The notes below the pieces were generated by a model that saw nothing but the letters and a program-made list of their open reading frames with translations, was not told where the DNA came from and did not search any database. DNA of 21,632 bases from a virus: IMG/VR virus record IMGVR_UViG_3300049489_000557, positions 1 to 21,632 of that record. The stretch is one strand, 5' to 3'. The position numbers and the translations under genes are program-made. This document shows, in pieces, positions 4,319 through 21,523 of the stretch (positions are counted from its first letter, which is position 1; every line of letters starts with the position of its first letter).

Positions 4319-4609
4319 TCACTCGAATACGAACTCGGGCTCGACGGGCTCGACGGGCTCGACGGGCTCGACGGGCTCGACGGGCTCGACGGGCTCGACG
4401 GGCTCGACGGGCTCGACGGGCTCGACGGGCTCGACGGGCTCGACGGGCTCGACGGGCTCGCCCTTCCAGTTGGAAGGCGGAAGCTGGACCCGGCACATCT
4501 CTTCATGCTCCAAGACGGCCAGCGCCTCGGCCGACGGCTCCCCGAGGGGACGATCCAACGGGTTCGCTGCGTTCTGGTACTCGGGGGCTACCCCGATCCA
4601 GTTGCTCAC
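4319..4609 (-). CDS. Short protein ending in 13 Pro-Val-Glu repeats, unknown function
   Basis: The start is GTG 4609, joined to the stop of the major capsid gene by a GTGA overlap. The product is 96 residues. Residues 1-51 (VSNWIGVAPEYQNAANPLDR at the start) are non-repetitive. Residues 52-90 are 13 copies of PVE, and the protein ends PEFVFE. The repeat would be an extended, negatively charged, proline-rich rod. It is encoded by a perfect 9-bp tandem repeat, so copy-number change would preserve the frame. Lying between the major capsid and the connector genes, it may be a capsid accessory or surface protein, but this is inference. I do not recognise the non-repeat part. Confidence 0.8.
   Translation of the reverse strand: MSNWIGVAPEYQNAANPLDRPLGEPSAEALAVLEHEEMCRVQLPPSNWKGEPVEPVEPVEPVEPVEPVEPVEPVEPVEPVEPVEPVEPVEPEFVFE
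4335..4459. repeat. Perfect 9-bp tandem repeat (GGGCTCGAC, 13 copies)
   Basis: The plus strand shows GGGCTCGAC repeated head to tail, with GAC triplets at every ninth base from 4343 to 4451, 13 in all and no visible substitution. On the coding (minus) strand it reads CCC GTC GAG, giving Pro-Val-Glu. It also creates long shadow reading frames (Gly-Ser-Thr and Arg-Arg-Ala repeats) on the other strand. Confidence 0.95.
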
Positions 4610-5736
4610 GCCAGGGCGTCCATGGTGAAGGTGTACTCCATGAGCGGGAAGACCGGGAACGCCTTGACGCCGGTGCCCCGGTTGAGGCCCCACGGATCGC
4701 GGGTCTCCTGCTCCCACTCGTAGAAGCCAGGCTGCCAGTTGCCCTCGGGGTGCGGACTGGTGAGCATCCGGCCGAGCCCCAACTCGTTGCCGAATTCGGC
4801 GACGTCGGCCTCGTCCGGCAGGAACAGAATGCGGTTCTGCGGGAAGAAGCGGTTGTTGGTGATGACCGTGCTGCCCTGCGGGCGAGTCCGGTAGACCGCG
4901 TCGTACTCGGTGAAGGTGACGTTGGTGGCGTTCTGGACCACCTGAAGGGCCGCCTGCGGCCCCCAGCCTTCCATGAGGTAGTTGAGGTCGATCGGCTTGG
5001 AGCCGGTGGCCCCAACCAGGCCCGAGCGAGCAATGAACTTGTCGCTCTTCATGATCGAGTTGATCACCTTGCGGCTGGTCATCGCACGCGTGATGCGGAC
5101 GCCGTAGGTGTCGAACATGAAGTCCTGAACCGCCAGGATGTCGCCGATCGGGTCGGAGCCCGCCGTCCCCCAGAGGCCGGAGGTCGGGGCCTGCGCCTGT
5201 TGACCCGCCGGACGACCGTAGTCGACCGAGAACACGATCTTGCCGTCGTTGTAGGCGATCGTGCCGGTGGACATCGCCGACATGATCAGCCACTCCATCC
5301 GGTTGTCCAGCTTGCGGCGGCGGAGTGCGTCCTCGCGTGCGAGCTTCGACTGGAAGTCAGAGACCATGTTGCCGACGGTGAGCGGAAGATCCAGCTCACC
5401 GGACAGGCGAGCTTCGACCAGGAGGTTCTCCCGGTACTTGGTGACGTCGCTCGCCGAGTAGTGATCCTTGTGTGCCCAGTCGATGACCGATGCGCGTCCG
5501 GTGCCACCGAAGAGCAGGTCCTTCTGGGCCAGCTCAGACTCAGCGTCCTCGGCCCGAGCCGGGGCGAGGCCGTCGGTGAGACCCTTGGCGTAGTCGAAGA
5601 TCACGTCGTCGGACGCAACCTCCATCCACGGGAAGAGCTGAAGCCCGATGTGAGTCAGCGGGGGCTGAATCTCCCGGATGGTTCCGAGCGCCACTTCCTT
5701 ACGGACGAGGCGGTCCTGTGTTGGGTATGCGGTCAT
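4606..5736 (-). CDS. Major capsid protein (lambda gpE-like family)
   Basis: A 376-residue protein from ATG 5736 with GGTAGGAG upstream. The sequence (MTAYPTQDRLVRKEVALGTI, then PPLTHIGLQLFPWMEVASDD) follows the lambda E pattern of an N-terminal arm leading into 'lf.pw..v.sddv.f'. Other fitting segments are LDLPLTVGNMVSDFQSKLAR, with the long helix EDALRRRKLDNRMEWLIMSA, and DFMFDTYGVRITRAMTSRKV. The length is close to the family norm of roughly 340-380 residues. It forms the icosahedral head with the upstream decoration protein. No chaperonin-like or protease motif is present. The upstream SD lies inside a short inverted repeat (5737-5750), and the stop overlaps the next gene. Confidence 0.9.
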   Translation of the reverse strand: MTAYPTQDRLVRKEVALGTIREIQPPLTHIGLQLFPWMEVASDDVIFDYAKGLTDGLAPARAEDAESELAQKDLLFGGTGRASVIDWAHKDHYSASDVTKYRENLLVEARLSGELDLPLTVGNMVSDFQSKLAREDALRRRKLDNRMEWLIMSAMSTGTIAYNDGKIVFSVDYGRPAGQQAQAPTSGLWGTAGSDPIGDILAVQDFMFDTYGVRITRAMTSRKVINSIMKSDKFIARSGLVGATGSKPIDLNYLMEGWGPQAALQVVQNATNVTFTEYDAVYRTRPQGSTVITNNRFFPQNRILFLPDEADVAEFGNELGLGRMLTSPHPEGNWQPGFYEWEQETRDPWGLNRGTGVKAFPVFPLMEYTFTMDALA

Positions 5737-5750
5737 GTAGGGCTCCTACC

Positions 5751-6554
5751 TCACTTGTAGCTGATGTTCTTGGTCGCTGCCAGAGCAATCATGGCGTCGC
5801 GAGTGGTGTTGGTCAGGGCGATGGCGGAACCGAGAGCGTTGTACTCCAGGCACCACGCCTGCACGACCGTGGCTTCGTACACGACCGAGACGACGACGTC
5901 GCGCTCGACGAGCTGCCAGGGCACGAACGTGTCGACGATGCCGACGATGTTGGCGGTGCTGCTGCGACCGTCGGTTGCGCCGGAGACGCCGGGCGTGGTT
6001 GTGGCCACGGTGATGCCGGGCGTGCTGCCCGTCAGGGACGCCGTGTTGGCGGTGATCGCCGGAACGTCTGCGCCGATCTCGCCGTTGTAGGTGATCGTGA
6101 GGGCAGCGCCAGGGAAGGCTCCGCCCGTGACGGTGATGTCGTCACCGATCTCCTTGTAGGCGTCCGACAGGTTCGCGTCGGCGGCGATGGCCGCACGAAT
6201 GGCTGCCTGGACCACGGAGATGCTGGCGTTCCAGGCGATCGGCGCCGTGGTTGCACCGAGCACCGTGAGGGTGTAGGTACCGCCAGAGATCGTCCCGGAC
6301 TGCGTGAGGGTCTGCACCTCGTCCGTACCGGCCGCCTGGAAGACGCCGACCTTGCCGGTGTCCGTGCCGCTGGTGATCTTGGCGATCACGGTGCCCGGCT
6401 GGAGGATCTTGGTGGGAACCCCGTCGACCATCACGAACGGGATGCCGGACTGGGCGAACGTGTAGCTCTCGGTCTTGATGTCCTGCGTGGACCGAAGGTA
6501 GGCGTTCTTGCCGAACGGCTGCCGAGCAGCCTTGCTGGTCTGGAATGTGGCCAT
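5751..6554 (-). CDS. Probable head decoration protein with inserted beta-rich domain
   Basis: A 267-residue protein from ATG 6554 with AAGGAG eight bases upstream. Residues about 25-75 (GIPFVMVDGVPTKILQPGTV then IAKITSGTDTGKVGVFQ) look like lambda D-type decoration proteins, which have 'l..Gtvl.k.....gk...'. Residues about 85-200 form a Thr/Gly-rich segment (GGTYTLTVLGATTAPIAWNA, then ITVTGGAFPGAALTITYNGE). This is a beta-rich unit common in phage virion proteins, where 'G.ytLt..G.tT..i..na....v' leads to 'vtG....g..tvtf.g'. It therefore looks like a decoration protein carrying an extra surface domain. The place just before the major capsid gene is the lambda D slot. Confidence 0.75.
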   Translation of the reverse strand: MATFQTSKAARQPFGKNAYLRSTQDIKTESYTFAQSGIPFVMVDGVPTKILQPGTVIAKITSGTDTGKVGVFQAAGTDEVQTLTQSGTISGGTYTLTVLGATTAPIAWNASISVVQAAIRAAIAADANLSDAYKEIGDDITVTGGAFPGAALTITYNGEIGADVPAITANTASLTGSTPGITVATTTPGVSGATDGRSSTANIVGIVDTFVPWQLVERDVVVSVVYEATVVQAWCLEYNALGSAIALTNTTRDAMIALAATKNISYK

Positions 6555-8033: not shown

Positions 8034-9408
8034 CCGTCGGGGGGTCGGAGGGGGACGCCACGCTCTCGGTGCGGTCGGTGCGCCCAACTTCGTCGCGCCC
8101 GTCCGCCTGTTGGGTGTCCTGCCCTTGGACCTCGCGCACTTCAGAGAGCCTCATCCCCAAAGCCATGCCGAGGTCGTCGAGGTCAACGGAGGCCGCACCG
8201 GTTCGCAGCAGCGTGGTGATCATCGCCCGAATGGTCTCCACGTTGTCTCGGCCGAAAGGGCGAATCTTCCACTGGACCGGGGGGGCCTTGGGACTGAAGT
8301 TGTAGCCCTTGATGCGCTCGCAGATGTAAGGGTCGATGTACTCCTTGATGTCCGACGCCAAGGCGTTGAGGGCGTGCATCCAGGTCTGAGTATGCTGAAC
8401 GCCCAGATTCAGGGAGCCGCGGTCGCCGGAGCGCATGAGCAGCATGGGAGTGAAGATGGCGAGGCTGATTTCTTCGTCCAGGCGGGACAGATACCGCTCG
8501 AAGTCGGCCCCACGCATCTGGGACTCCAGGTACTCGATGTCGTACATATATTCGCTACGAACCGAAGCGGTGGGGTCGCGGTCGGACGGCAACACGACGC
8601 TGCCGCTGGAGCGGAGGCGCTGCATGGCGTTCTCCACGACCTGCTTGCCGGTCATCTCGACATCTTCGCCGTTCTCGTTCTTGAACTGGAACTCCTCCTG
8701 GAATGGAGCACGTCCGATCGGCGTGGGCTCGCCGAATCGTTCGAAGTAGCGGTTCGAGAAGAGGTGAACCAGCAGCGAGAAGTACCAAGGCACGAATGCC
8801 GGTTGCAGCAACTTGCGCCCGTAGTAGTTGCCGTGCTCCCGCAGCACCGGGTACCAGAACGACTGTTCGGGCGGGATGGGGTAGGAGAGCCCCGTCTTCT
8901 TGATCCCGTCAAAAACCTTAACTTTCGGAACGATGTGGTTCGAGACGCCCGGCGGACGGTAGGTGCTGGGCACCTCCTTCCAGTTGACGGCCGCCTGGCC
9001 CGGCGGAAGGTCCTTCACCTTGGAAATGAAGATATTGGCGTCGTTGTTGGCGTTGTCCCACTCCAGCACCATCGGCGAATAGCCAGCCCAGTAAGCGGTC
9101 GAAAGACCACGAACCAGTTGCGTCCAGATCAGGCGGAGATTCTGCTCGACGAGATCGGCAATCTTCTGGTCCTCGCACTCCACGTACCAATCGCACTGAT
9201 GAAGCATGAAGGTGATCATGGAAAGCGAGGCGTGGACCTGCGGATGCGTTCGCATCTCCGAATAGTCCGTCAGCGTCAACTTGGAAACGTCGAACATGAT
9301 CGCCGGAGAACCCGCGAACGGTTGATACTGATCGAGCCAGGTGTTGTCGAACGAGGGGCCCGTGGCGGGAGGTGCCGCCTTCTTGAAGAAATATGCTTCG
9401 CTGGACAT
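8017..9408 (-). CDS. Portal protein (DUF935 / Mu gp29-like)
   Basis: A 463-residue protein starting at ATG 9408 (MSSEAYFFKKAAPPAT), chosen because it forms a TGATG junction with the terminase stop and has AAGG eight bases upstream; GTG 9435 is a weaker alternative. Supporting segments are RTHPQVHASLSMITFMLHQC with DWYVE, a central WYFSLLVHLFSNRYFERFGE, and near the C-terminus the helix ERYLSRLDEEISLAIFTPML followed by GSLNLGVQHTQTWMHAL. These match DUF935-type portals, which have '.d..i...ilg' and 'gs.a...vh'. The portal forms the dodecameric ring through which terminase pumps DNA. It follows terminase and precedes the protease, as expected. The last 30 residues are a disordered, charged tail. 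Confidence 0.85.
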   Translation of the reverse strand: MSSEAYFFKKAAPPATGPSFDNTWLDQYQPFAGSPAIMFDVSKLTLTDYSEMRTHPQVHASLSMITFMLHQCDWYVECEDQKIADLVEQNLRLIWTQLVRGLSTAYWAGYSPMVLEWDNANNDANIFISKVKDLPPGQAAVNWKEVPSTYRPPGVSNHIVPKVKVFDGIKKTGLSYPIPPEQSFWYPVLREHGNYYGRKLLQPAFVPWYFSLLVHLFSNRYFERFGEPTPIGRAPFQEEFQFKNENGEDVEMTGKQVVENAMQRLRSSGSVVLPSDRDPTASVRSEYMYDIEYLESQMRGADFERYLSRLDEEISLAIFTPMLLMRSGDRGSLNLGVQHTQTWMHALNALASDIKEYIDPYICERIKGYNFSPKAPPVQWKIRPFGRDNVETIRAMITTLLRTGAASVDLDDLGMALGMRLSEVREVQGQDTQQADGRDEVGRTDRTESVASPSDPPTGGVGA

Positions 9409-12170
9409 CACATGCGCCTTGTCGGTGGTCTCCACTGGATCGGATCGGTGTCAACCCTCGGCGCAATCGGCGCTCGCGGCGTGCCGCCGACGAAAGCGGG
9501 ATGCGAACTTGGGCTCATTCTGCCATTACTAGCACCATCGACCCCCTCCTGGCTCCCCATGGGATTCACGGAGGACATTCGACGATGGAATCTCGGGTCG
9601 CCCATGATGCTGGAAACCACGCAAGCGATGGCGTCAGCGACGTCTTTGGAGCCGTCCGGCGGGTGATCAATCTTCGAGCCTTCGTCTTGGAGCTGGGACA
9701 GCTCCTTGTAAACGATGTCCATCAAAGTTGGGTCCGCCGGAGACGTTGGCACCATGTAGGGCGGGATCGCCACCCGACCCTCGACTACGGCATCATGCAG
9801 GTCGAAGAACGGCAGCGTAGTGCGGTCAGCAGACAAGACCTCCGTCATGATGCGACGCCGTTGAAGCTGCTGGCGCATGTCGGTGCTGTTGTGGATGAAG
9901 ACACCAGCCCCGATCGCGAAGTTGTGGTGCTCGTCGATGGAGAGGTCGTACACATCTTCGGTCTCGCCGCAATCCGTCACGGAGACGACCTTGTGATTGG
10001 ATCGGTCGCGCCGTCGATAGGTGACCGGCTCCGGCACGCAGCGTCCGTTGATCTCGCCGTAAGAAAAGTCATTCCAGCCGTTGAATCCGGCCTCCCTGAC
10101 TCTGGAGTAGATCAAGTCCTGAGACACGCCGAGTTCCTTGGCGGGAATCCTCCAGGAGTAGCCTCGGAACGGCTCCAGCATCTCGATCGTGACATCACGT
10201 CGCCGACGTCGAGCGTCCAGACCCGTTCGTCGCTTGTTCGACTCCGAGACAACCCGACTCATCTTCTCCCGGTGCCCTGGTTGCTCCCAGATTGCCTTGG
10301 CGTGCAGAACTCGATGATCGTGAATCGTCATCACCTCCAGGTTCTCGGGGGCGTTGTTTCGCTTGCCGAAATCCTTGTGGTGGACGATCTCGCCCTTCCG
10401 GAGCGGCGGGGCCACCATGCGGTGGGTGTACTGCCAGCGCCCCCCCGACTTGCGACCCGGCTGCATGACTCTCTCGTAGCCTTGAAGCCCCTTCCAGTCG
10501 TCGGGTGTCACGTCTCGGTAAAGCGGCATCAATGAGTCGCCGGGGCGCAGGTCACGAGCCTCGCGATACGAGCCGTCCCTCATCATGAATCGGTGATCGC
10601 AGGTGGTCTTCACGACCTCACCGTTGTCGAGCAGCACCTCCAACACCGGCTTCGTTCCGGTCTTCCATGCCTTGACGCATCGGCCCGGAACGATTCGCCC
10701 GGTGGCGTGGCTGTACGAGTATGTCCAGAAGCCGCCCTTGGGGTGGCTCTGAGCCAATTCGGCAATGGTTCGGTTCTGGCCGTCGAGCGTCGGGATGATC
10801 ATGTCACCTACGATACACTGGAAACCGTCGGTCGTGATCTTGGTGATGTTGAACTTGCGATCGTACTTGAGCTGATAGATGAGCTGCCGGATGTCGCCCA
10901 GATACAGCTCTCGCCCCGGAGGCGCCTGAATCCTCATCACCAAGTCAAAGATGATGAACGGCTTGCGCTCGTCGTCGTAGGTGACCATCTCGGCGACGTG
11001 GGCAATGGCGAGCCCCAGCGCGTCGCCGTCGGGCGAGAACGCGATGTCGATGTGACCAACTCGGGGGACACTGTTCTGGGCGCGCAAGCCATCATGGAAG
11101 TTGTTGTTGGCGTCCACAGGCACGAAGTTGCCGTAGCGCTCGATGTAGGCGGTCCGGCACAGGTCGATCTTCGATGGATCGTGGAACAGCGGGCTATTGA
11201 CTTCGGGCGGACGGCCAGCAAGGTCGCGTAGCGCCTTCTGGGGGCTGTTCAAGAAGTCTCGCTCATAGACGAGCGGCACCTCGATGATGTGTGACGGGAA
11301 GCCCTGGAGGGCGGCCAGGTCTTTCGTGGTGAACACGTAGCGCTGGGTGTCGTACCAGAAAGACGCCCTGCTCCCGTCCGGGTTGAGGAACTTCTCCCAG
11401 CCCATGGATTCCCAGATCGTGATCAGGCTCGTGTACGCCTTCGGGTCCTGGCGCATCTTGCGATACATCTTGGCGGCGAAGCCCGACGCCTTCTTCATCT
11501 GCCCGACAATCAACAAGAAACCGCGATCCTGGAAGCGAGAGGTGATGCGGCCGTGGATCGTGGTGTATCCCTGGTCGGCGTAGTCCTTGTTCTTGGTGAT
11601 CTTGTGGGAGTCGGCCTCGTCGAGAATGCCGCCCAGGATGTTGTAGCCCTCGAAGGTGGTCTCCGCGGAGTCGCCAGGGATGATCCAGACGTCCTTGGGG
11701 AATCGAAATTGGTTCTTGAATGCCTTGTCGTAGGGGTAGTTCTTCTTGAACCACGGCGAGTTGTCGATGCGCGCCTTGATGTCACCGAACACGACCTCCT
11801 TGGCCTGCGTCTCGGAAGTCGACATCTGCATGAAAGCGATTCGAGTGCCAGCCATCATCCCGAAGTGCCCCTGCGGGTCTTTCAAGCAAAGAACCCAGTG
11901 GGCCATGTAGGGAATGATGATCGAAGCCAAGGTGGTCTTGCCGACGCCGATGCCGCCAGTAAAGATGCCCTGCTCGTATCGAGCAATTCGGTCCGGATTG
12001 GTCTCGGTGCCAAAAATGTCGATGAGGATTTGCTTGAGAATCGGCCTGACGTTGTGCTCGATGTTCAAGTAATCCGGTCCGAGAAACTCCAGGATCGAAG
12101 CTGGCCTCTGCTCGAATTGAGGATTGTCCTTGAGCCAGACGAACTCGGCTTGGAAGCTAGTCGTCGTCAC
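9408..12170 (-). CDS. Terminase large subunit (TerL) interrupted by an intein
   Basis: The start is taken as GTG 12170, since CGAGGTCC lies upstream; GTG 12194 in frame has no ribosome binding site. The precursor is 920 residues; removing the 310-residue intein leaves 610. The ATPase part has Walker A GIGVGKTT (about 73-80) and Walker B with catalytic Glu in ILGGILDEAD (about 178-187). The nuclease part has HIDIAFSPDGDA (373-384), TKITTDGFQ directly before the intein with S762 after it, and HPPDGSKDVADAIA (836-849), the expected acidic motifs of the RNase H-like fold. TerL pumps DNA into the head and cuts concatemers. The gene overlaps the upstream 484-residue gene by 14 bases, and its stop overlaps the portal start. 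Confidence 0.95.
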   Translation of the reverse strand: MTTTSFQAEFVWLKDNPQFEQRPASILEFLGPDYLNIEHNVRPILKQILIDIFGTETNPDRIARYEQGIFTGGIGVGKTTLASIIIPYMAHWVLCLKDPQGHFGMMAGTRIAFMQMSTSETQAKEVVFGDIKARIDNSPWFKKNYPYDKAFKNQFRFPKDVWIIPGDSAETTFEGYNILGGILDEADSHKITKNKDYADQGYTTIHGRITSRFQDRGFLLIVGQMKKASGFAAKMYRKMRQDPKAYTSLITIWESMGWEKFLNPDGSRASFWYDTQRYVFTTKDLAALQGFPSHIIEVPLVYERDFLNSPQKALRDLAGRPPEVNSPLFHDPSKIDLCRTAYIERYGNFVPVDANNNFHDGLRAQNSVPRVGHIDIAFSPDGDALGLAIAHVAEMVTYDDERKPFIIFDLVMRIQAPPGRELYLGDIRQLIYQLKYDRKFNITKITTDGFQCIVGDMIIPTLDGQNRTIAELAQSHPKGGFWTYSYSHATGRIVPGRCVKAWKTGTKPVLEVLLDNGEVVKTTCDHRFMMRDGSYREARDLRPGDSLMPLYRDVTPDDWKGLQGYERVMQPGRKSGGRWQYTHRMVAPPLRKGEIVHHKDFGKRNNAPENLEVMTIHDHRVLHAKAIWEQPGHREKMSRVVSESNKRRTGLDARRRRRDVTIEMLEPFRGYSWRIPAKELGVSQDLIYSRVREAGFNGWNDFSYGEINGRCVPEPVTYRRRDRSNHKVVSVTDCGETEDVYDLSIDEHHNFAIGAGVFIHNSTDMRQQLQRRRIMTEVLSADRTTLPFFDLHDAVVEGRVAIPPYMVPTSPADPTLMDIVYKELSQLQDEGSKIDHPPDGSKDVADAIACVVSSIMGDPRFHRRMSSVNPMGSQEGVDGASNGRMSPSSHPAFVGGTPRAPIAPRVDTDPIQWRPPTRRM
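9888..10817 (-). mobile_element. Intein with HNH homing endonuclease inside TerL
   Basis: This 310-residue in-frame insertion begins with Cys (CIVGDMIIPTLDG, block A) and ends GVFIHN followed by Ser, the expected splice junction. Block B is present as VVKTTCDHRF, with the Thr-x-x-His pair. The C-terminal part (VSVTDCGETEDVYDLSIDEH, then HNFAIGAGVFIHN) is block F/G. Between them lies an HNH endonuclease core (GEIVHHKDFGKRNNAPENLE, then VMTIHDHRVLH), followed by an Arg-rich stretch and a likely helix-turn-helix (RIPAKELGVSQDLIYSRVRE). All splicing residues seen are intact, so it should splice and could spread by homing. It interrupts the second acidic motif of the nuclease domain. Confidence 0.95.
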
Positions 12171-13611
12171 TGGACTGGACCTCGATCGCGACACGATGGA
12201 TCGGCGGGTCTTCGCCGCGCATCACGGCTTCAACCTGCTCGATCGTGGCGTCGGCGAGGGGAATCCCGAACTGCTCCAACTTGGCCGCGACCCCCGCCAT
12301 GATCTCCTGCGGGGTGGCGCTGGCGACGGCGCCAGCGTTGGCGTTGACAATGCCGACGTTGACCCTGCCACTCGCCATCTGAGCGGCGATCGCCGGGTCC
12401 AGCAAGCGGGCCATCTGGATCGCTCGATCAAAGACGCCGTTGGCGAGAGTCGTCACCTGTGGGGAAAGTCTGTACTGGCCAGTCTGATTTGCGAGTTCTT
12501 GCTCAGTGAGGAGCGCTCGCTCCAGTCGCTCCGTGTTCGCGCTGAGGAGCGCACTGCACCCGTCGATGATGTCGCTCGCCTTGCGCGAGCGAAACTGGTT
12601 CGACAGCTTTTGACCTTCGGTTCCGTCCACGATGCAAATTGCTCCTGCCCGAGAGTATGGACAACGATGGGCTATTGTGCAAGTATCACAAAGCCACTTG
12701 TCGCCTATTTCGACGACTCGGGGCCTGTATCTCGTTGCCACGGGAACCCAATCGTCATCTGACGATTCGTAATCTACGGCACCGTCGGGGCTGCGACCCT
12801 GGAAGGCATACAACTTTTCCTGGTTTCGCTCGGCCCACAGCAGTGACTTCAAGTTGAAGCGGTATGCGAATTGCCCTCGCTCGGAGCGATCCTTCATGCG
12901 AACGAAACGCGCCAACGACTCGCCGATGAGCTTGCCCCAGTGGTTGAAGTCTCTCCAGGAGTCCATGTCGCGAAGAATCTGGCCGTTCGGCATCAGCAGG
13001 GTCGGCATGTCACCAACCCAGTCGATCGTCACGGGGTGGTCGAAGCCATCAACCGAGATGCCAACAGTACGGGCAACGCTCTTGCCGCCGTGAAAGTGGA
13101 AGCGCACATCGTAGACGCGCCGCATGTCAGAGACGTGGCTCATCATCCCTTGCCACTCGAAGCGGTCTTTGGGCGGGTTGCGGATCAAGACAATCGGGCG
13201 CTGACCAGGAACACACTTATAGGGCGTCGAGTCGCCCCAGAAGGTTCCCACCTCGTCGCCCGGTTTCGGGTAATCGCGACACAGGTCGCGAAGGCGATTG
13301 AGAGTGGAGTCACGGAACGACCAGCTTGGATAGGCGGCCACTGGACGGCTCCAGCCCTGTTCACTGCTGTAGAGCAGAGACACGCGGCCGTCGTACTCAA
13401 CCAGCAGCGCTTCCCAGGGTCTGCCCCTGCCGTAGAAGTCAAGTAGCCTCTTGGGGTCGATCGCCATGTTGCGCTTGAACTGGTAGGTCTTCTGAGTGAA
13501 GACGAACTTGGAAATCCCGAGGTCAAGGCAGATGTGGATGTTCTTGCCGGGGTTGAGGACCCAGAGTTGAGACCGTTCGGTCCACGGACTAGCGATTCTG
13601 TCGTCCGTCAT
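12157..13611 (-). CDS. Unknown 484-residue protein directly before terminase (possible small-terminase role)
   Basis: The start is ATG 13611 (MTDDRIASPW) with AAGGA six bases upstream; it overlaps the helicase-primase gene by 23 bases. I do not recognise the N-terminal 300 residues. A Cys cluster, C-x2-C-x5-C-x8-C (308, 311, 317, 326; CDTCTIAHRC at its start), could bind zinc or an iron-sulfur cluster. After it comes a helical stretch (about 340-410) that includes RSRKASDIIDGCSALLSANT, ERLERALLTEQELANQ and TTLANGVFDRAIQMARLLDP. Such a helical region, immediately before TerL, could serve in small-terminase-like DNA or TerL binding, but the protein is much longer than usual small subunits (about 100-200 residues). 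Replication-linked function is equally possible. Confidence 0.8.
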   Translation of the reverse strand: MTDDRIASPWTERSQLWVLNPGKNIHICLDLGISKFVFTQKTYQFKRNMAIDPKRLLDFYGRGRPWEALLVEYDGRVSLLYSSEQGWSRPVAAYPSWSFRDSTLNRLRDLCRDYPKPGDEVGTFWGDSTPYKCVPGQRPIVLIRNPPKDRFEWQGMMSHVSDMRRVYDVRFHFHGGKSVARTVGISVDGFDHPVTIDWVGDMPTLLMPNGQILRDMDSWRDFNHWGKLIGESLARFVRMKDRSERGQFAYRFNLKSLLWAERNQEKLYAFQGRSPDGAVDYESSDDDWVPVATRYRPRVVEIGDKWLCDTCTIAHRCPYSRAGAICIVDGTEGQKLSNQFRSRKASDIIDGCSALLSANTERLERALLTEQELANQTGQYRLSPQVTTLANGVFDRAIQMARLLDPAIAAQMASGRVNVGIVNANAGAVASATPQEIMAGVAAKLEQFGIPLADATIEQVEAVMRGEDPPIHRVAIEVQSSDDD

Positions 13612-16930: not shown

Positions 16931-17353
16931 TCAGAGTTCCGGTATGTCTTCGTCCGGGGCGACCCAGGTGACGTCTCCGCTGTTAGCGGTGGCTCCGGCA
17001 AGAGTTATGGTCCCCGAGCTGGCGGTGGTTGGGCCCGGAAGCGTGGCTGGCCAGATGTCAGTCCCGGCGCGGTATTTGGCGCTTGCAGTGGGCGCTGCCG
17101 GTGCGGTTCGAGGCGGATCGCCGGTCGGCACGGAACGCCATCCGGCCTCCGACAACTTGGCGTGCTCGGCCAGCACCCGCAACCCCCAAGCGTTGAGACT
17201 GAGACCCTCGCGTTTGGCCGCCTCCATGAAGCGATCCTTGAGGTTCGGGTGCATTCGCAGCAGGAAGCTGGCGTTGGATGGCTTGGTCTCTGCTTGGCCG
17301 ACCGGCGGCAGCGAAAGGTCGACGCCAACGTCTGGCTGGGCTCGCACGTTCAT
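16931..17353 (-). CDS. Ribbon-helix-helix protein (HicB/Arc-like), probable DNA-binding regulator
   Basis: The start is ATG 17353, joined by ATGA to the upstream gene, with a strong AAGGAG site. Of 140 residues, about 28-65 (SFLLRMHPNLKDRFMEAAKR then EGLSLNAWGLRVLAEH) match the ribbon-helix-helix fold of Arc and HicB-type proteins: a beta strand with 'flLR..p.lkd', then two helices with 'SLNAw...vL'. The C-terminal half is Pro/Ala/Thr-rich and likely disordered. These proteins bind DNA as dimers and often repress their own operon. It precedes the hairpin, palindrome and replication promoter, so it may control the replication genes. No toxin partner is visible next to it. Confidence 0.75.
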   Translation of the reverse strand: MNVRAQPDVGVDLSLPPVGQAETKPSNASFLLRMHPNLKDRFMEAAKREGLSLNAWGLRVLAEHAKLSEAGWRSVPTGDPPRTAPAAPTASAKYRAGTDIWPATLPGPTTASSGTITLAGATANSGDVTWVAPDEDIPEL

Positions 17354-17565
17354 CGCTTGCTCCTTGGTGGAACGATCAAGACGATCGCTTCGTGAAAGTT
17401 GATGAGCTGGCCGCCGTGCACCCGCAGCCGAGGGGCGGCATCGTCGGGGTCGCACACGATCGTGCCGTGATAAGACCGGATGCAAGGGGCATCGGAGGGG
17501 CCGACGTCGGCGATCACCTCGGCCTCCAGACCGCGACACAGGTAGTCCACATCTCGCCACCTCAT
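17350..17565 (-). CDS. Unknown 71-residue protein
   Basis: The start is ATG 17565 (MRWRDVDYLCRGLEAEVIAD), linked to the preceding stop by ATGA, with GGGGGTCG upstream as a weak binding site. It is compact and mixed alpha/beta in appearance (residues 30-71: DAPCIRSYHGTIVCDPDDAA, then HEAIVLIVPPRSK). Two Cys at 20 and 38 and a third at 48 are not arranged as a zinc motif. No HicA or other toxin motif is visible, although it is directly upstream of the ribbon-helix-helix gene. Function unknown. Confidence 0.65.
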   Translation of the reverse strand: MRWRDVDYLCRGLEAEVIADVGPSDAPCIRSYHGTIVCDPDDAAPRLRVHGGQLINFHEAIVLIVPPRSKR

Positions 17566-18500: not shown

Positions 18501-18841
18501 CACTTGGACCCCGCGCTCAGGACGGGCGTCATCGCCACATAGTGGTCGTACTCGGGCGATTCGTAGCCGGAGACCTCGGTGAAGCCTTCCAGCCGCACCG
18601 GAATCTCGTCGAGCGAGAGGTACTCGCTCGGATAGTCGCCAAGCTGTGCGCTTCGATTGCAGATCGGACACTCGTCGGTGTAGATGCTGGCCCCGTCGAT
18701 GGCGTCCCATCGGAACATCCAGACGTGCGAGAACATCCCGGCTTCGCAGTTGTCGGGGCAGGGCGGACCAATGAAGTCGCGCTCGGGCGGAAGGATGGTC
18801 CAATGGATCTTCACTGTGGTGGCTTGGTCGGAGTTGCTCAC
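18500..18841 (-). CDS. Unknown 113-residue protein with two Cys pairs
   Basis: The start is GTG 18841, overlapping the upstream stop as GTGA and preceded by GAAGGGGGG. The protein (MSNSDQATTVKIHWTILPPE) has CPDNC at about residues 28-32 and CPIC at about 58-61, a pattern suggesting a zinc site, then a C-terminal acidic segment (YPSEYLSLDEIPVRLEGFTE). It appears soluble. It is one of several Cys-paired small proteins in this cluster. No known family recognised. Confidence 0.7.
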   Translation of the reverse strand: MSNSDQATTVKIHWTILPPERDFIGPPCPDNCEAGMFSHVWMFRWDAIDGASIYTDECPICNRSAQLGDYPSEYLSLDEIPVRLEGFTEVSGYESPEYDHYVAMTPVLSAGSK

Positions 18842-19038
18842 GATGCGCCCCCCCTTCGTCTGTGACTGCGAATCCAGGCCACCCCGAGCGCAGCGGACGC
18901 CGCCCCGTGGGCGATTAAGTCAGCTTTTGCCCCGAAGTCGTCGGACCAATCGTGTGACGGATGCCCGAACCACGGCCAGATGCCGAACAGCGCGGTCCAG
19001 CCGACGAACAGCCACAGCAGGATGCGGTCGCCGGTCAT
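18838..19038 (-). CDS. Small two-span membrane protein
   Basis: The start is ATG 19038, joined by ATGA to the upstream stop. The 66-residue product opens MTGDRILLWLFVGWTALFGI with a clear transmembrane segment (about 6-24). A second more weakly hydrophobic stretch (LIAHGAASAALGVAWI, about 41-56) comes before a basic tail (RSHRRRGGAS). A holin-like protein is possible but no endolysin gene is nearby, and small membrane proteins in early operons often have other roles. It has only a weak ribosome binding site (GCAGG), so it probably relies on translational coupling. Confidence 0.65.
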   Translation of the reverse strand: MTGDRILLWLFVGWTALFGIWPWFGHPSHDWSDDFGAKADLIAHGAASAALGVAWIRSHRRRGGAS

Positions 19039-19535
19039 GGGTGAACCTGCAACTGGACGGCGCACGTCCCCGGCTTGGCGGCAGGCGGGAGGGTGATGAT
19101 CTCGCCGTCCTGGCAGAACCCCTCGGTGTTGGTCCGCAGAATGGCCGTCTCGTCCATCATGTCGATGTGGTCGATGTGGCCGTGCTCCCAGTCGTTGGAG
19201 TTGTCCACGATCGGCAGCACCATGCCGGGGACGACTGAGACACGGAAAGTAATAAGGTCGCAGCGCAGAGCGTTGGCAAGCGTGTCGCATAGCTGCTCCA
19301 CTTCCACGGTGAACGTGTGTCGGCCGGTGCTGTCGCAGTCGGGGCAGGGGGCGTCAATCACCATCTCGTCAGACACATACCCGCTCCCGCCGCAGCTCCC
19401 GCACGGACGGTCGAGATGCTTGACGGGTGGGCTGTCATCCAGCGTCCACGACCCGAGCGCCCACCACGCCGTGCCGTCGTCGTTGAACGAGATGTGGTCG
19501 GTTGGAGTGCGTGGAGGGACAATCATGCTGCTCAT
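19035..19535 (-). CDS. Protein with a DnaJ-type zinc-finger motif
   Basis: The start is ATG 19535 (MSSMIVPPRTPTDH), which overlaps the upstream stop as ATGA and lies within the repeated junction element. The product is 166 residues. Residues 45-71 (CGSCGGSGYVSDEM, then CPDCDSTGRH) form two CxxC(x)GxG-like knuckles with Cys 45, 48, 64 and 67, as in the zinc domain of DnaJ. There is no J domain, so this is not a DnaJ protein. The rest (VEQLCDTLANALRCDLITFR, then DHIDMMDETAILRTNTEGF) was not recognised. The motif often binds unfolded chains or RNA, but the role here is unknown. Confidence 0.75.
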   Translation of the reverse strand: MSSMIVPPRTPTDHISFNDDGTAWWALGSWTLDDSPPVKHLDRPCGSCGGSGYVSDEMVIDAPCPDCDSTGRHTFTVEVEQLCDTLANALRCDLITFRVSVVPGMVLPIVDNSNDWEHGHIDHIDMMDETAILRTNTEGFCQDGEIITLPPAAKPGTCAVQLQVHP

Positions 19536-19741
19536 GAGCCGCTTGCCTTCGGGTATCGCGTGCAGCATTCGTCGCATTCCAGCATCGGGAACAGGGGGTC
19601 ATCCGACGTGGCATCGGGCAGCGGTTTGTTGCAGTTGCAGCACTCGAACGTCAGGTCTGGTGGCTCGCAGTCATCGTGTGGCGCGTCACAGAGATCGCAC
19701 CAGACGAACGACCCCACGTCGTAAACGTCGTCGCCGCTCAT
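19532..19741 (-). CDS. Small zinc-ribbon-like protein with repeat-encoded tail
   Basis: The start is taken as ATG 19741, an ATGA junction preceded by CAGGATGGG; ATG 19750 in frame is less likely. The 69-residue product (MSGDDVYDVGSFVWCDLCDA) has CDLC at 15-18, CCNC at about 35-38 and CDECC at about 56-60, enough cysteines for one or two zinc sites. Its C-terminus RYPKASGS is encoded by a copy of the repeated junction element. Probably a small metal-binding protein; function unknown. Confidence 0.72.
   Translation of the reverse strand: MSGDDVYDVGSFVWCDLCDAPHDDCEPPDLTFECCNCNKPLPDATSDDPLFPMLECDECCTRYPKASGS
19542..19563. repeat. Junction repeat, copy E (half element)
   Basis: Twenty-two bases identical to copy C, followed directly by CGGCTC and ATG 19535. 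It lacks the CAGGAAGGG part and encodes the RYPKAS tail of the 69-residue protein. Confidence 0.8.
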
Positions 19742-20091
19742 GTGGCCCATCCTGATCGGTCAGAGGCGTCGGGGTCCTTCGGGTATGGATCGTCGGGCGG
19801 AAGCGGGAACATCCGAACCAATCGTCCTCTCGCATCGGAGAGCAGCCTGCGGGCCTCTTGGCGCTGCTCGTACGCCGCGTCTCGGTGTTGAGCGGCCTTG
19901 CGGAGATTCTCTTGCTCCTCCATCAGCCGCTCCTGGGCTTCGATGTACGCAGTCTCGGCAGCTTCCAGTTCAGCCACGTACCTGATTCGCAGGTCGGCCA
20001 GTGGGACGTTGCCCTCGCCAGGGACGTGACCCAGGTTGACATTTGCGTGCTCAGAACTCGCCCACTTGTTCGGGCCTTCCGGCTGCTTCAC
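19738..20091 (-). CDS. Coiled-coil protein with repeat-encoded tail
   Basis: The start is GTG 20091 with CAGGAAGGGG upstream inside a repeat copy. Of 117 residues, about 33-90 (ADLRIRYVAELEAAETAYIE, AQERLMEEQENLRKAAQHRD, then AAYEQRQEARRLLSDAR) form a long amphipathic helix or coiled coil. The C-terminus DPYPKDPDASDRSGWAT is encoded by another repeat copy. There is no catalytic motif or membrane span. It could dimerise or bind a partner; no function can be assigned. Confidence 0.72.
   Translation of the reverse strand: MKQPEGPNKWASSEHANVNLGHVPGEGNVPLADLRIRYVAELEAAETAYIEAQERLMEEQENLRKAAQHRDAAYEQRQEARRLLSDARGRLVRMFPLPPDDPYPKDPDASDRSGWAT
19746..19786. repeat. Junction repeat, copy D
   Basis: A diverged copy: ATACCCGAAGGACCCCGACG, then CCTCTGACCGATCAGGATGG before ATG 19741. 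It encodes the PYPKDPDASDRSG tail of the coiled-coil protein. Confidence 0.78.
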
Positions 20092-20098
20092 GTCGCGC

Positions 20099-20143
20099 CC
20101 CTTCCTGATTGGCTAGTGTCACTTGCCTTCGGGTATCGCGTGC
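20099..20143. repeat. Junction repeat, copy C (non-coding)
   Basis: Starts with the same CGATACCCGAAGG but has a different middle (CAAGTGACACTAGCCAAT) before CAGGAAGGGG and GTG 20091. It shares 22 identical bases (20122-20143) with copy E. It lies outside any coding sequence except at its upper edge. Confidence 0.82.
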
Positions 20144-20335
20144 TCACTGCTGCGACCTCCACCAGTCGAGGGCCTCCCGCTGCTGCTCGGCTTGTTCCAG
20201 GTCGATGACGCACGACTTGAGTTCAGATGGCGTGTGGTCCCGAACCGCCGCCCCGCAGAACTCGCACGGTTGAGTAAAAACCGACACTTCCGTCCCGTCC
20301 GTGCCTGTGGGTTCGTCCCATCCATCCCGCCACAT
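20144..20335 (-). CDS. Unknown 63-residue protein with a CxxC motif
   Basis: The start is ATG 20335, joined to the upstream stop as TGATG, with a strong TCAGGAGG in a repeat copy nine bases upstream. The product (MWRDGWDEPTGTDGTEVSVF) has CEFC at 24-27 and a further Cys at about 42. The helical C-terminus is VIDLEQAEQQREALDWWRSQ followed by Q. It stops at 20144 before another repeat copy, which here lies outside the coding sequence. Possibly zinc-binding; no family recognised. Confidence 0.68.
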   Translation of the reverse strand: MWRDGWDEPTGTDGTEVSVFTQPCEFCGAAVRDHTPSELKSCVIDLEQAEQQREALDWWRSQQ

Positions 20336-20538
20336 CAGACAGTCCCTCCTGATCGGCCAGAGGCGGTGGAATCCTTCGGGTCTGCGCCGTTCCGCTTGCC
20401 GTCATCATCAAAGTCGGACGGGTCGAACGCTGCACCGTGGACGATGTGTCGAAGCCACGCACGCTCAATGTCCGTCAACTGTGACGGGCGTTTGGAGATC
20501 CACGCACTTATACGTTCGTCGTACGCACGTACGCTCAC
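20335..20538 (-). CDS. Unknown 67-residue protein with repeat-encoded tail
   Basis: The start is GTG 20538, a GTGA junction preceded by CAGGAAGGG; longer readings have no binding site. The product is MSVRAYDERISAWISKRPSQ, then LTDIERAWLRHIVHGAAFDP and a tail. It looks like a small helical domain of about 40 residues. The final PKDSTASGRSGGTV comes from a copy of the repeated junction element and is nearly identical to the tail of the 175-residue upstream protein. No function can be assigned. Confidence 0.68.
   Translation of the reverse strand: MSVRAYDERISAWISKRPSQLTDIERAWLRHIVHGAAFDPSDFDDDGKRNGADPKDSTASGRSGGTV
20344..20383. repeat. Junction repeat, copy B
   Basis: Identical to copy A over 29 bases (20353-20381), ending in the binding site TCAGGAGGG before ATG 20335. 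It encodes the PKDSTASGRSG tail of the 67-residue protein. Confidence 0.88.
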
Positions 20539-20729
20539 GGCGTGGCCCTTCCTGTCCGGTATGGACCACGAATTGCGTGGCGCTGGTTGCAGGTTTCCGA
20601 GTGATATCCGTCGGGGTCGTAGCCGCCATCTTCTGCAATGGCGCATTCCCCACAGCAGAACAGGACTGTGGTCTGACGGTCGCACGCTGGGTTACTGCAA
20701 GGCCACAACCGACGATCGTTTGCGTTCAC
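20535..20729 (-). CDS. Small Cys-rich protein, probable zinc ribbon
   Basis: The start is GTG 20729, overlapping the upstream stop as GTGA, with CAGGAAGGG seven to eight bases upstream. The 64-residue product (MNANDRRLWPCSNPACDRQT) has CSNPAC at 11-16 and CCGEC at about 25-29, with a further Cys and His near the C-terminus (SETCNQRH). The Cys spacing suggests a short metal-binding ribbon similar to those found in phage-encoded anti-host or regulatory proteins. No named family was recognised. Confidence 0.7.
   Translation of the reverse strand: MNANDRRLWPCSNPACDRQTTVLFCCGECAIAEDGGYDPDGYHSETCNQRHAIRGPYRTGRATP
20546..20562. repeat. Junction repeat, shortened copy F
   Basis: Minus strand ATACCGGACAGGAAGGG: the two ends of the element without the middle, placed eight bases before GTG 20538. 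It is the most degenerate copy and could be a chance resemblance, though it sits at the expected distance from a start. Confidence 0.45.
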
Positions 20730-21253
20730 GATTCGTCCCTTCCTGTTCGGCCAGAGGCGGTGGAATCCTTCGGGTATCGCGTGGCGGCGAACGCGTCGGC
20801 CTGCTCCTTGCAGTACCCGTAGTACCCCCCCAACGCTTCCCAGATCGCCACGTCGCCGCGCTGGAAGAACGCCGCCATGATCGACTCAGCGCCGAGGCCA
20901 GAGCCGTCGTAGTAGCAACCGCCGTCGATCACGTCACACTCGCTGCGCTCGTATTCGCCTTCGTAGAGGGGTGTGCGCCAGTGGCGTCCAAGGTCGCTCG
21001 CCATCGGCTCGGACGGGATGGGGTGGATGCCGTCCAGGCAGGGCAGTGGCACCCTCACGTCCACCCTGTCACCCCATTCGCTGGTGATGATGTGTGTCGG
21101 CAGCCATCCCGTGTGCATCACGAACTGCACCGAGCCGTCATCCCCGTGGAGAAGGAACCACATCCTCATCGACGCGCGCCCGTACTTGCCTTTCGTTTCC
21201 TCGACTCGGTCGTAGCCGGGCTCGAATCTGATCTCTCGTCGGAGTTCGCTCAT
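20726..21253 (-). CDS. Unknown 175-residue phage protein with repeat-encoded tail
   Basis: The start is ATG 21253 (MSELRREIRFEPGYDRVEET), overlapping the upstream stop as ATGA. Longer readings in this frame cross the upstream gene and are rejected. Recognisable segments are MRMWFLLHGDDGSVQFVMHT with GWLPTH, and ERSECDVIDGGCYYDGSGLG followed by AESIMAAFFQRGDVAIWEAL. Cysteine, tyrosine and glycine clustering at CDVIDGGCYYDGSG looks conserved, as in phage proteins of unknown function. The C-terminus RYPKDSTASGRTGRDES is encoded by the first copy of the repeated junction element. The protein appears soluble. Confidence 0.72.
   Translation of the reverse strand: MSELRREIRFEPGYDRVEETKGKYGRASMRMWFLLHGDDGSVQFVMHTGWLPTHIITSEWGDRVDVRVPLPCLDGIHPIPSEPMASDLGRHWRTPLYEGEYERSECDVIDGGCYYDGSGLGAESIMAAFFQRGDVAIWEALGGYYGYCKEQADAFAATRYPKDSTASGRTGRDES
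20737..20781. repeat. Junction repeat, copy A
   Basis: This element reads on the minus strand as CGCGATACCCGAAGG, a variable middle, then CAGGAAGGG just before a start codon. Copies A and B share a 29-base identical stretch (20747-20775 here). It encodes the tail of the 175-residue protein and supplies the binding site of the next gene. Confidence 0.88.
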
Positions 21254-21444
21254 GTTGCGGCCAGAGCGCCGTCCGCGAGCTGGCGCAACGCGCTCTCGAC
21301 GCCCTCGTGTCCGTAGTCGTCCACGAGGCCCTGGAGGCCGTGGATCAACCGAGGGGACACGCTGCCGTCGAAGATGCTCGGCGGCGAGTAGCCGGAATCC
21401 GCTTGGTTTTTCGGGGATGCGCTGATCAAGTTGTCGGTCGTCAT
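21250..21444 (-). CDS. Unknown 64-residue protein, first gene of the operon, probably leaderless
   Basis: The start is ATG 21444 (MTTDNLISASPKNQADSGYS); no ribosome binding site precedes it, but a strong promoter places the likely transcription start within about two bases of the ATG, so the message is probably leaderless. Longer readings in this frame run through the 11-bp repeats and are rejected. The C-terminal half (LIHGLQGLVDDYGHEGVESA, then LRQLADGALAAT) looks like a small helical domain. The family was not recognised. Its promoter position suggests an early role. Confidence 0.7.
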   Translation of the reverse strand: MTTDNLISASPKNQADSGYSPPSIFDGSVSPRLIHGLQGLVDDYGHEGVESALRQLADGALAAT

Positions 21445-21452
21445 GGAGCGAC

Positions 21453-21480
21453 ATGATATCACATTGATAGCTGTTGTCAA
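21453..21480 (-). promoter_or_regulatory. Strong sigma-70-type promoter for the small-gene operon
   Basis: The minus strand has TTGACA (21475-21480, perfect), a 16-base spacer and TATCAT (21453-21458) with an upstream TG (TGATATCAT), an extended -10. The predicted start point is about 21446-21444, at the ATG of the first gene. An operator-like palindrome overlaps the -10 box. Confidence 0.82.
21455..21471. promoter_or_regulatory. Operator-like site overlapping the early promoter
   Basis: GATATCAC, one base, TTGATAGC: an imperfect palindrome (6 of 8 complementary) that overlaps the -10 box and spacer of the early promoter. A more symmetrical relative lies about 150 bases away at 21604-21620. 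The shared TGATATCAC half-site suggests a common repressor. Confidence 0.55.
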
Positions 21481-21523
21481 CTGCCAACTCGAATTACTTG
21501 ACAGCACGGCCCCGCCTCGGCTT

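Follow-up and report, generated by a model that had tools for sequence, protein, structure and literature searches.

Translated borders of putative single-gene cassettes at the junctions of small phage genes, and their probable exchange among phages

The 21.6 kb window, by which we mean the whole stretch of viral DNA analyzed here, is a fragment of a tailed phage genome from a virus record. Its minus strand, read from position 21253 downward, carries a row of small genes followed by genes for primase, helicase, terminase, portal, protease, capsid and tail proteins. The capsid is related to the capsids of Gordonia phage GTE7 and its allies, and the nearest relative of the window, contig G001, has a capsid that is 85% identical. 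The large terminase gene (9408-12194, minus strand) contains an in-frame intein with an HNH endonuclease at about residues 460-769, which starts with CIVGD, ends with FIHN-S and matches Pfam Intein_splicing (3.8e-21), and relatives have no intein at the same site. About 14 tandem copies of the 9-mer CGGGCTCGA are located beside the capsid gene at 4336-4460.

The small-gene array begins with gene 1 (20726-21253, 175 aa) and continues on the minus strand with gene 2 (20535-20729, 64 aa, Cys-rich), gene 3 (20335-20538, 67 aa), gene 4 (20144-20335, 63 aa), gene 5 (19738-20091, 117 aa) and gene 6 (19532-19741, 69 aa), with gene 7 (19035-19535, 166 aa) located downstream of the array. A promoter-like site, TTGACA-16-TATCAT, lies upstream of the array at 21453-21480 on the minus strand, as a match to the consensus. 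The site (window 21430-21490) seems to recur in relatives together with GATATCA motifs (TTGACA...GATATCAT), at about 1450-1480 in L149, 16360-16400 in L156 and 17560-17590 in L159, and perhaps serves an early repressor as its operator.

Six successive junctions of the small genes are occupied by a repeat, all on the minus strand. Four copies are full, namely c1 (20726-20779), c3 (20333-20385), c4 (20088-20147) and c5 (19738-19788), whereas c2 (20535-20564) consists of the right half alone and c6 (19532-19558) of the left half alone. The string ACCCGAAGG is found at 20775, 20381, 20134, 19784 and 19554, and CAGGAAGGG or a close form of it at 20745, 20554, 20351, 20107 and 19754. The initial annotation had listed at least five clear copies and one reduced copy; the repeats are real, although the count has to be revised to four full copies, one right half and one left half. 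The identities that it reported between pairs of copies, 29 bases for c1 and c3 and 22 bases for c4 and c6, are exact and represent the longest non-tandem repeats in the window. Its statement that the element is confined to this region also holds, as position-specific matrices built from the copies find no comparable site in the rest of the window; the 9-mer ACCCGAAGG has one further occurrence outside the array, at 11446.

Every copy forms the 3' end of an open reading frame, always in one constant frame. This is usually the frame of the upstream gene, and at c4, which is preceded by the stop of gene 4, it is a mini-ORF of 19 codons with a GTG that overlaps this stop. At each copy the stop codon overlaps the start of the gene that follows, as GTGA, ATGA or TGATG: GTGA at c1, where the stop of gene 1 overlaps the start of gene 2, and at c2, TGATG at c3, and ATGA at c5 and c6. 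The encoded tails are TRYPKDSTASGRTGRDES, PYRTGRATP, ADPKDSTASGRSGGTV, STRYPKASDTSQSGRGAT, DPYPKDPDASDRSGWAT and TRYPKASGS for c1 to c6, respectively, the first of them being the C-terminal tail of gene 1. The translation of the element as a C-terminal tail was missed in the earlier description. The frame, identical in every copy, would suit a conserved C-terminal peptide tag (YPKxSxxSGRSGR) through which several small proteins share one location or fate. In the conserved cores of 15-17 copies, however, the third codon positions are almost fixed whereas the first and second vary, and variation of this kind does not favour conservation at the peptide level. The codon variants TAC/GAC/TGC/AAC in the left half and ACA/TCA/GCA in the right half point the same way, and the mini-ORFs attach the peptide to no protein; we consider a peptide tag most improbable.

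The two halves, hereafter B (left) and C (right), recur separately in other phages. The pattern of the left half matched contig G012 and, in a relaxed form, also G013 and G014, while the right-half pattern matched G013 and a variant of it matched G001, G012, G014 and G015; patterns derived from separate halves chose the same unrelated contigs among 2.9 million. Matrices run over the whole records added copies that the patterns had missed, including both sites of the second cassette of G012, the pair at 5259 and 5432 of G014 and a second pair in G015. The common layout consists of a C border (GCATACCGARCAGGAAGGGCC, then the overlapping stop and start), a single small ORF, and, as the last codons of this ORF, a B border (CCATACCCGAAGGYAAGYGA) that reaches up to the start of the next gene. 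At all seven C sites of G012, G014 and G015 the order C-ORF-B is found on one strand with exactly one ORF between, whereas none of 200,000 random placements gave this order at more than 3 sites. As C always precedes one small ORF and B stands at its end, the full element reads as the B of one cassette plus the C of the next, i.e. the joint between neighbouring cassettes, and the adjoining B and C give the 40-45 base composite seen in the window. That the element is two different borders joined was another point missed in the initial annotation. B itself resembles C, the two being imperfect direct repeats. Like c4 of the window, phages G012, G014 and G015 show versions with a mini-ORF that starts at the upstream stop.

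Apart from the related pair G013 and G014, the carriers share almost nothing with each other or with the window beyond the small genes of the region, and yet otherwise dissimilar carriers have words of 26, 23, 22 and 20 bases in common that are located in the borders; the 26 identical bases are shared by c4 and a B border of the unrelated phage G012. Relatives of gene 7 are present in G014 and G015, and a transmembrane gene of the window (18838-19038) has a relative in G012 that follows a B border and another gene. Several otherwise unrelated phages thus appear to carry one-gene cassettes with the same border at each end. Local duplication within one phage, by tandem gene duplication or slippage and with no exchange between phages, could account for the long identities of c1 with c3 and of c4 with c6. 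It is contradicted by the same borders around other genes in the unrelated phages G012-G015, the intervening proteins have no Pfam family and no resemblance to each other on inspection, and we find this explanation very hard to credit.

The carriers number only six contigs, every one of them metagenomic and most of them fragments, and their hosts are probably actinobacteria. Three of the six bear adjacent JGI sample numbers and could stem from a single study. A further 1.17 Mb was screened in 126 other phage contigs, nearly all of which were chosen for containing a loose form of the motif; no right-half site exceeded 18 bits there, and only two left-half sites exceeded 17.5 bits, both of them lacking an in-frame stop. 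The loose pattern itself (ACCCGAAGG, a gap and CAGGA) and a tighter version of it gave what appear to be chance matches in viral contigs. In the nearest relatives by capsid the exact 9-mer revealed no array; the profile then found a C-ORF-B cassette in G001 despite this negative result. GenBank isolate phages showed no borders above the chance level, and the flanking DNA of two cassettes, one flanking protein and the gene 6 protein had no match among isolates. In bacterial genomes the B pattern had no match, and two matches to the C pattern, away from any stop/start joint, were taken as chance. An unrelated contig, L046, has two B-like sites 850 bases apart (1110 and 1954), one of them right before an ATG and without an in-frame stop, which could be chance matches or a variant form.

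In three comparisons genes have been gained, lost or swapped at the borders, which supports the cassette idea. First, gene X of the window (17350-17565, minus strand, 71 aa) overlaps gene Y (16931-17353, minus strand) by ATGA, forming an empty site that is filled in G001 by a whole cassette between X and Y (L149:2704-3206). There the homologue of X ends in a C border (PGLYRAGRAT), a new 80-codon gene comes next and has a degenerate B border (PNQKASAETSEP) at its end, and the start of Y overlaps the stop of this cassette gene. The flanking proteins of the window and G001 are only 47% and 58% identical, and therefore this breakpoint is known at the gene level only. Second, contigs G013 and G014 are related over 10 kb and at one locus have a common upstream gene and a common downstream exonuclease gene, between which one contig has two cassettes and the other a different single cassette. 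Their DNA is 87% identical up to position 366 of G013, inside C, and 81% identical again from position 972, at the edge of B, and the inserts are unrelated. Third, the protein of gene 6 is 91% identical in G013, where both of its neighbours are different and where no other true gene is common with the window; the DNA similarity of the two is limited to 19763-19546 and both begins and ends within the borders. The mosaic breakpoints coincide with borders by DNA for G013/G014 and window/G013 and at the gene level for window/G001.

These comparisons show from the sequence that gene gain, loss or replacement occurs at the borders. The initial annotation had suggested that the element may mark gene cassettes and provide sites for swapping small genes, and it named a profile search of related phages as the check. 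This proposal is borne out, as copies do exist in other phages, where they are placed at gene starts and at the borders of genes that were gained, lost or replaced. We conclude that the element very probably represents the borders of single-gene cassettes exchanged by phages.

The C half holds AGGAAGG at ribosome-binding distance, and pairing with the anti-Shine-Dalgarno sequence before the starts that follow C has a mean of -7.2 kcal/mol versus -3.6 kcal/mol at random ATG/GTG codons. The corresponding value for the B half is about -4.5, which is weak and near the background. Given the Shine-Dalgarno-like stretch of the right half, the built-in ribosome binding site ascribed to the element in the initial annotation is correct for that half; for the left half it is weak at best.

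Start-associated sequences (SAS) and extended SAS (ESAS) are known from cluster K mycobacteriophages (PMC3203893) and from Microbacterium phages of cluster EF (PMC7302621). The likeness to those of cluster K had been noticed earlier for its position and with the remark that the sequence differs. The position agrees, since the repeats lie immediately before start codons and overlap the ribosome-binding position. The elements described here have another sequence and no inverted repeats, are coding rather than intergenic, and are linked to gene swap. The 13 bp SAS consensus of cluster K, GGGATAGGAGCCC, has one chance-level match in the window (5740-5752, two mismatches) and that of cluster EF, GGGAAAGGACCCC, has none, and the 17 bp imperfect inverted repeats that lie upstream in the cluster K ESAS are absent at the elements. 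With neither a SAS consensus nor ESAS inverted repeats, membership in this family is rejected. A signal of the same general type, which tunes translation or binds a phage protein or RNA and has no role in gene exchange, would fit the location of all copies next to start codons and the conservation of the Shine-Dalgarno-like core of C beyond the Shine-Dalgarno sequence itself. It leaves unexplained the C-ORF-B order, the swapped inserts at one locus and the sharing among unrelated phages, and the B half ends genes and has a weak Shine-Dalgarno sequence; we regard such a signal as quite unlikely.

The closest known things to the element are phage boundary sequences, proposed as recombination sites between modules of lambdoid phages (Clark et al. 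2001, as cited in PMC2629481 and PMC2327257). The idea is discussed in PMC3029335, according to which such sequences cannot be found at most mosaic borders. Both systems have short homology at junctions, overlapping ATGA stop/starts and a Shine-Dalgarno sequence just before them, and the lambda nin junctions that we read end in similar G-rich ATGA strings. The nin region of lambda belongs with the boundary-sequence cases, for which general recombination has been proposed to swap genes. As expected of boundary sequences, a short conserved junction sequence is found here in otherwise different phages and mosaic breakpoints coincide with it. In contrast to the lambdoid examples, the present borders have distinct sides (C at the 5' end, B at the 3' end), travel with single genes, form composites in arrays, and recur in phages that have almost no further gene in common.

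At stop/start junctions, a single gene flanked by short direct repeats can be either present or missing, as is known from Corndog gene 14, gained or lost at a 17 bp direct repeat (PMC4351075), and from Brujita and Island3, with repeats of about 50 bp (PMC3029335). Those are single cases, whereas here one set of borders serves many genes in several phage lineages. The PeSL promoter-terminator cassettes of T4-type phages (Arbiol 2010; Comeau 2014), as they are presented in PMC4503421, are similar in that repeated signal elements at gene borders mediate the shuffling of small genes. By that account PeSLs are transcriptional and structured, while the elements of the window are translational and lie within coding sequence. 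In place of an early promoter and a stem-loop, no promoter was found inside the array, between genes, and RNA at the element folded no better than shuffled sequences and had no Rfam match.

Gene cassettes of integrons are alike as arrays of unrelated single-ORF cassettes with common joints, and differ from the present case, in which the joints are translated and hold start signals. Neither the folding test nor the search for inverted repeats found a folded attC-like site at the elements. A dedicated site-specific system, integron-like and with its own phage recombinase acting on B and C, would agree with the standard borders, the variable single genes, the tandem array and the likeness of B and C as imperfect direct repeats. 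It is nevertheless unlikely, as judged from the lack of a structured or palindromic site and from borders that differ by several bases; in a non-exhaustive look at carriers that are mostly fragments, neither an integrase nor a recombinase common to them was found. A broader proposal is a phage-wide mobile cassette system, comparable to the circulation of integron cassettes among bacteria. One-gene cassettes with standard, translated borders at their 5' and 3' ends would pass between unrelated phages that have the same hosts, and a recombinase, either dedicated or co-opted, would act on B and C to move them. We consider this rather unlikely.

In the favoured model of exchanged single-gene cassettes, the short homology of the borders would guide recombination when phages infect the same cell, with annealing and exonuclease systems of the Red, RecT or RecE type from phages as the probable machinery. 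The neighbours of the cassettes include a RecE-like exonuclease (G012b), another exonuclease (G013/G014) and a primase (G015a), and general phage recombination is in line with the exonuclease genes beside some cassettes. Exchange itself is seen as an outcome, and general recombination on short homology is its presumed agent.

The architecture, the constant frame and the overlapping stops and starts are evident from the letters themselves, and this anatomy suggests translational coupling. In the simplest reading all genes of the array would be on one message and rely on ribosomes being relayed wherever a stop overlaps a start. Insertion of a gene would normally part the downstream start from its ribosome-binding site, which lies within the upstream gene. 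The problem of entry may be solved by C, where a mini-ORF or an in-frame fusion to the upstream gene would catch ribosomes and hand them to the cassette gene, and that of exit by the B border. The in-frame linker, the embedded Shine-Dalgarno sequence and the stop/start overlap would keep ribosomes moving from the upstream gene to the cassette and on to the downstream gene, so that the inserted gene would neither break the operon nor require its own promoter. Stop, ribosome-binding and start signals are all present in the borders, as a gene would need for slotting into or out of an operon with translation intact.

It has long been asked how phages acquire the many small genes of unknown function that they carry, and recombination at boundary sequences was proposed as an answer decades ago. 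Here the borders are visible, reused for many genes, common to unrelated phages and tied to actual insertions and replacements, which makes the boundary-recombination model testable. Boundary sequences as recombination points of lambdoid phages are an established idea, PeSLs have a similar role in T4-type phages, and single genes between direct repeats are on record, to judge by PMC3029335, PMC4503421 and PMC4351075. As far as this literature goes, what is new is that the borders are standard on both sides, are translated, form composite joints in arrays and extend across unrelated phages. The borders suggest a design rule, whereby an accessory gene equipped with a leader mini-ORF, a start signal of its own and an in-frame linker at its exit could enter an operon without disturbing translation, and they provide a search key for accessory genes in phage genomes.

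Other repeated sites were observed in relatives of the window. Many degenerate repeats around CACCATCGTGTC are found in the relatives G004 and G003 (L157, 16400-20000, and L154, 11800-14400), where they likely encode a repetitive structural protein. The distant relative G008 has several copies of the palindrome TGTTTCACGTGAAACA at about 3204-6253 of L165, which we take to match the ParB centromere site parS, and a copy is also present in G014.
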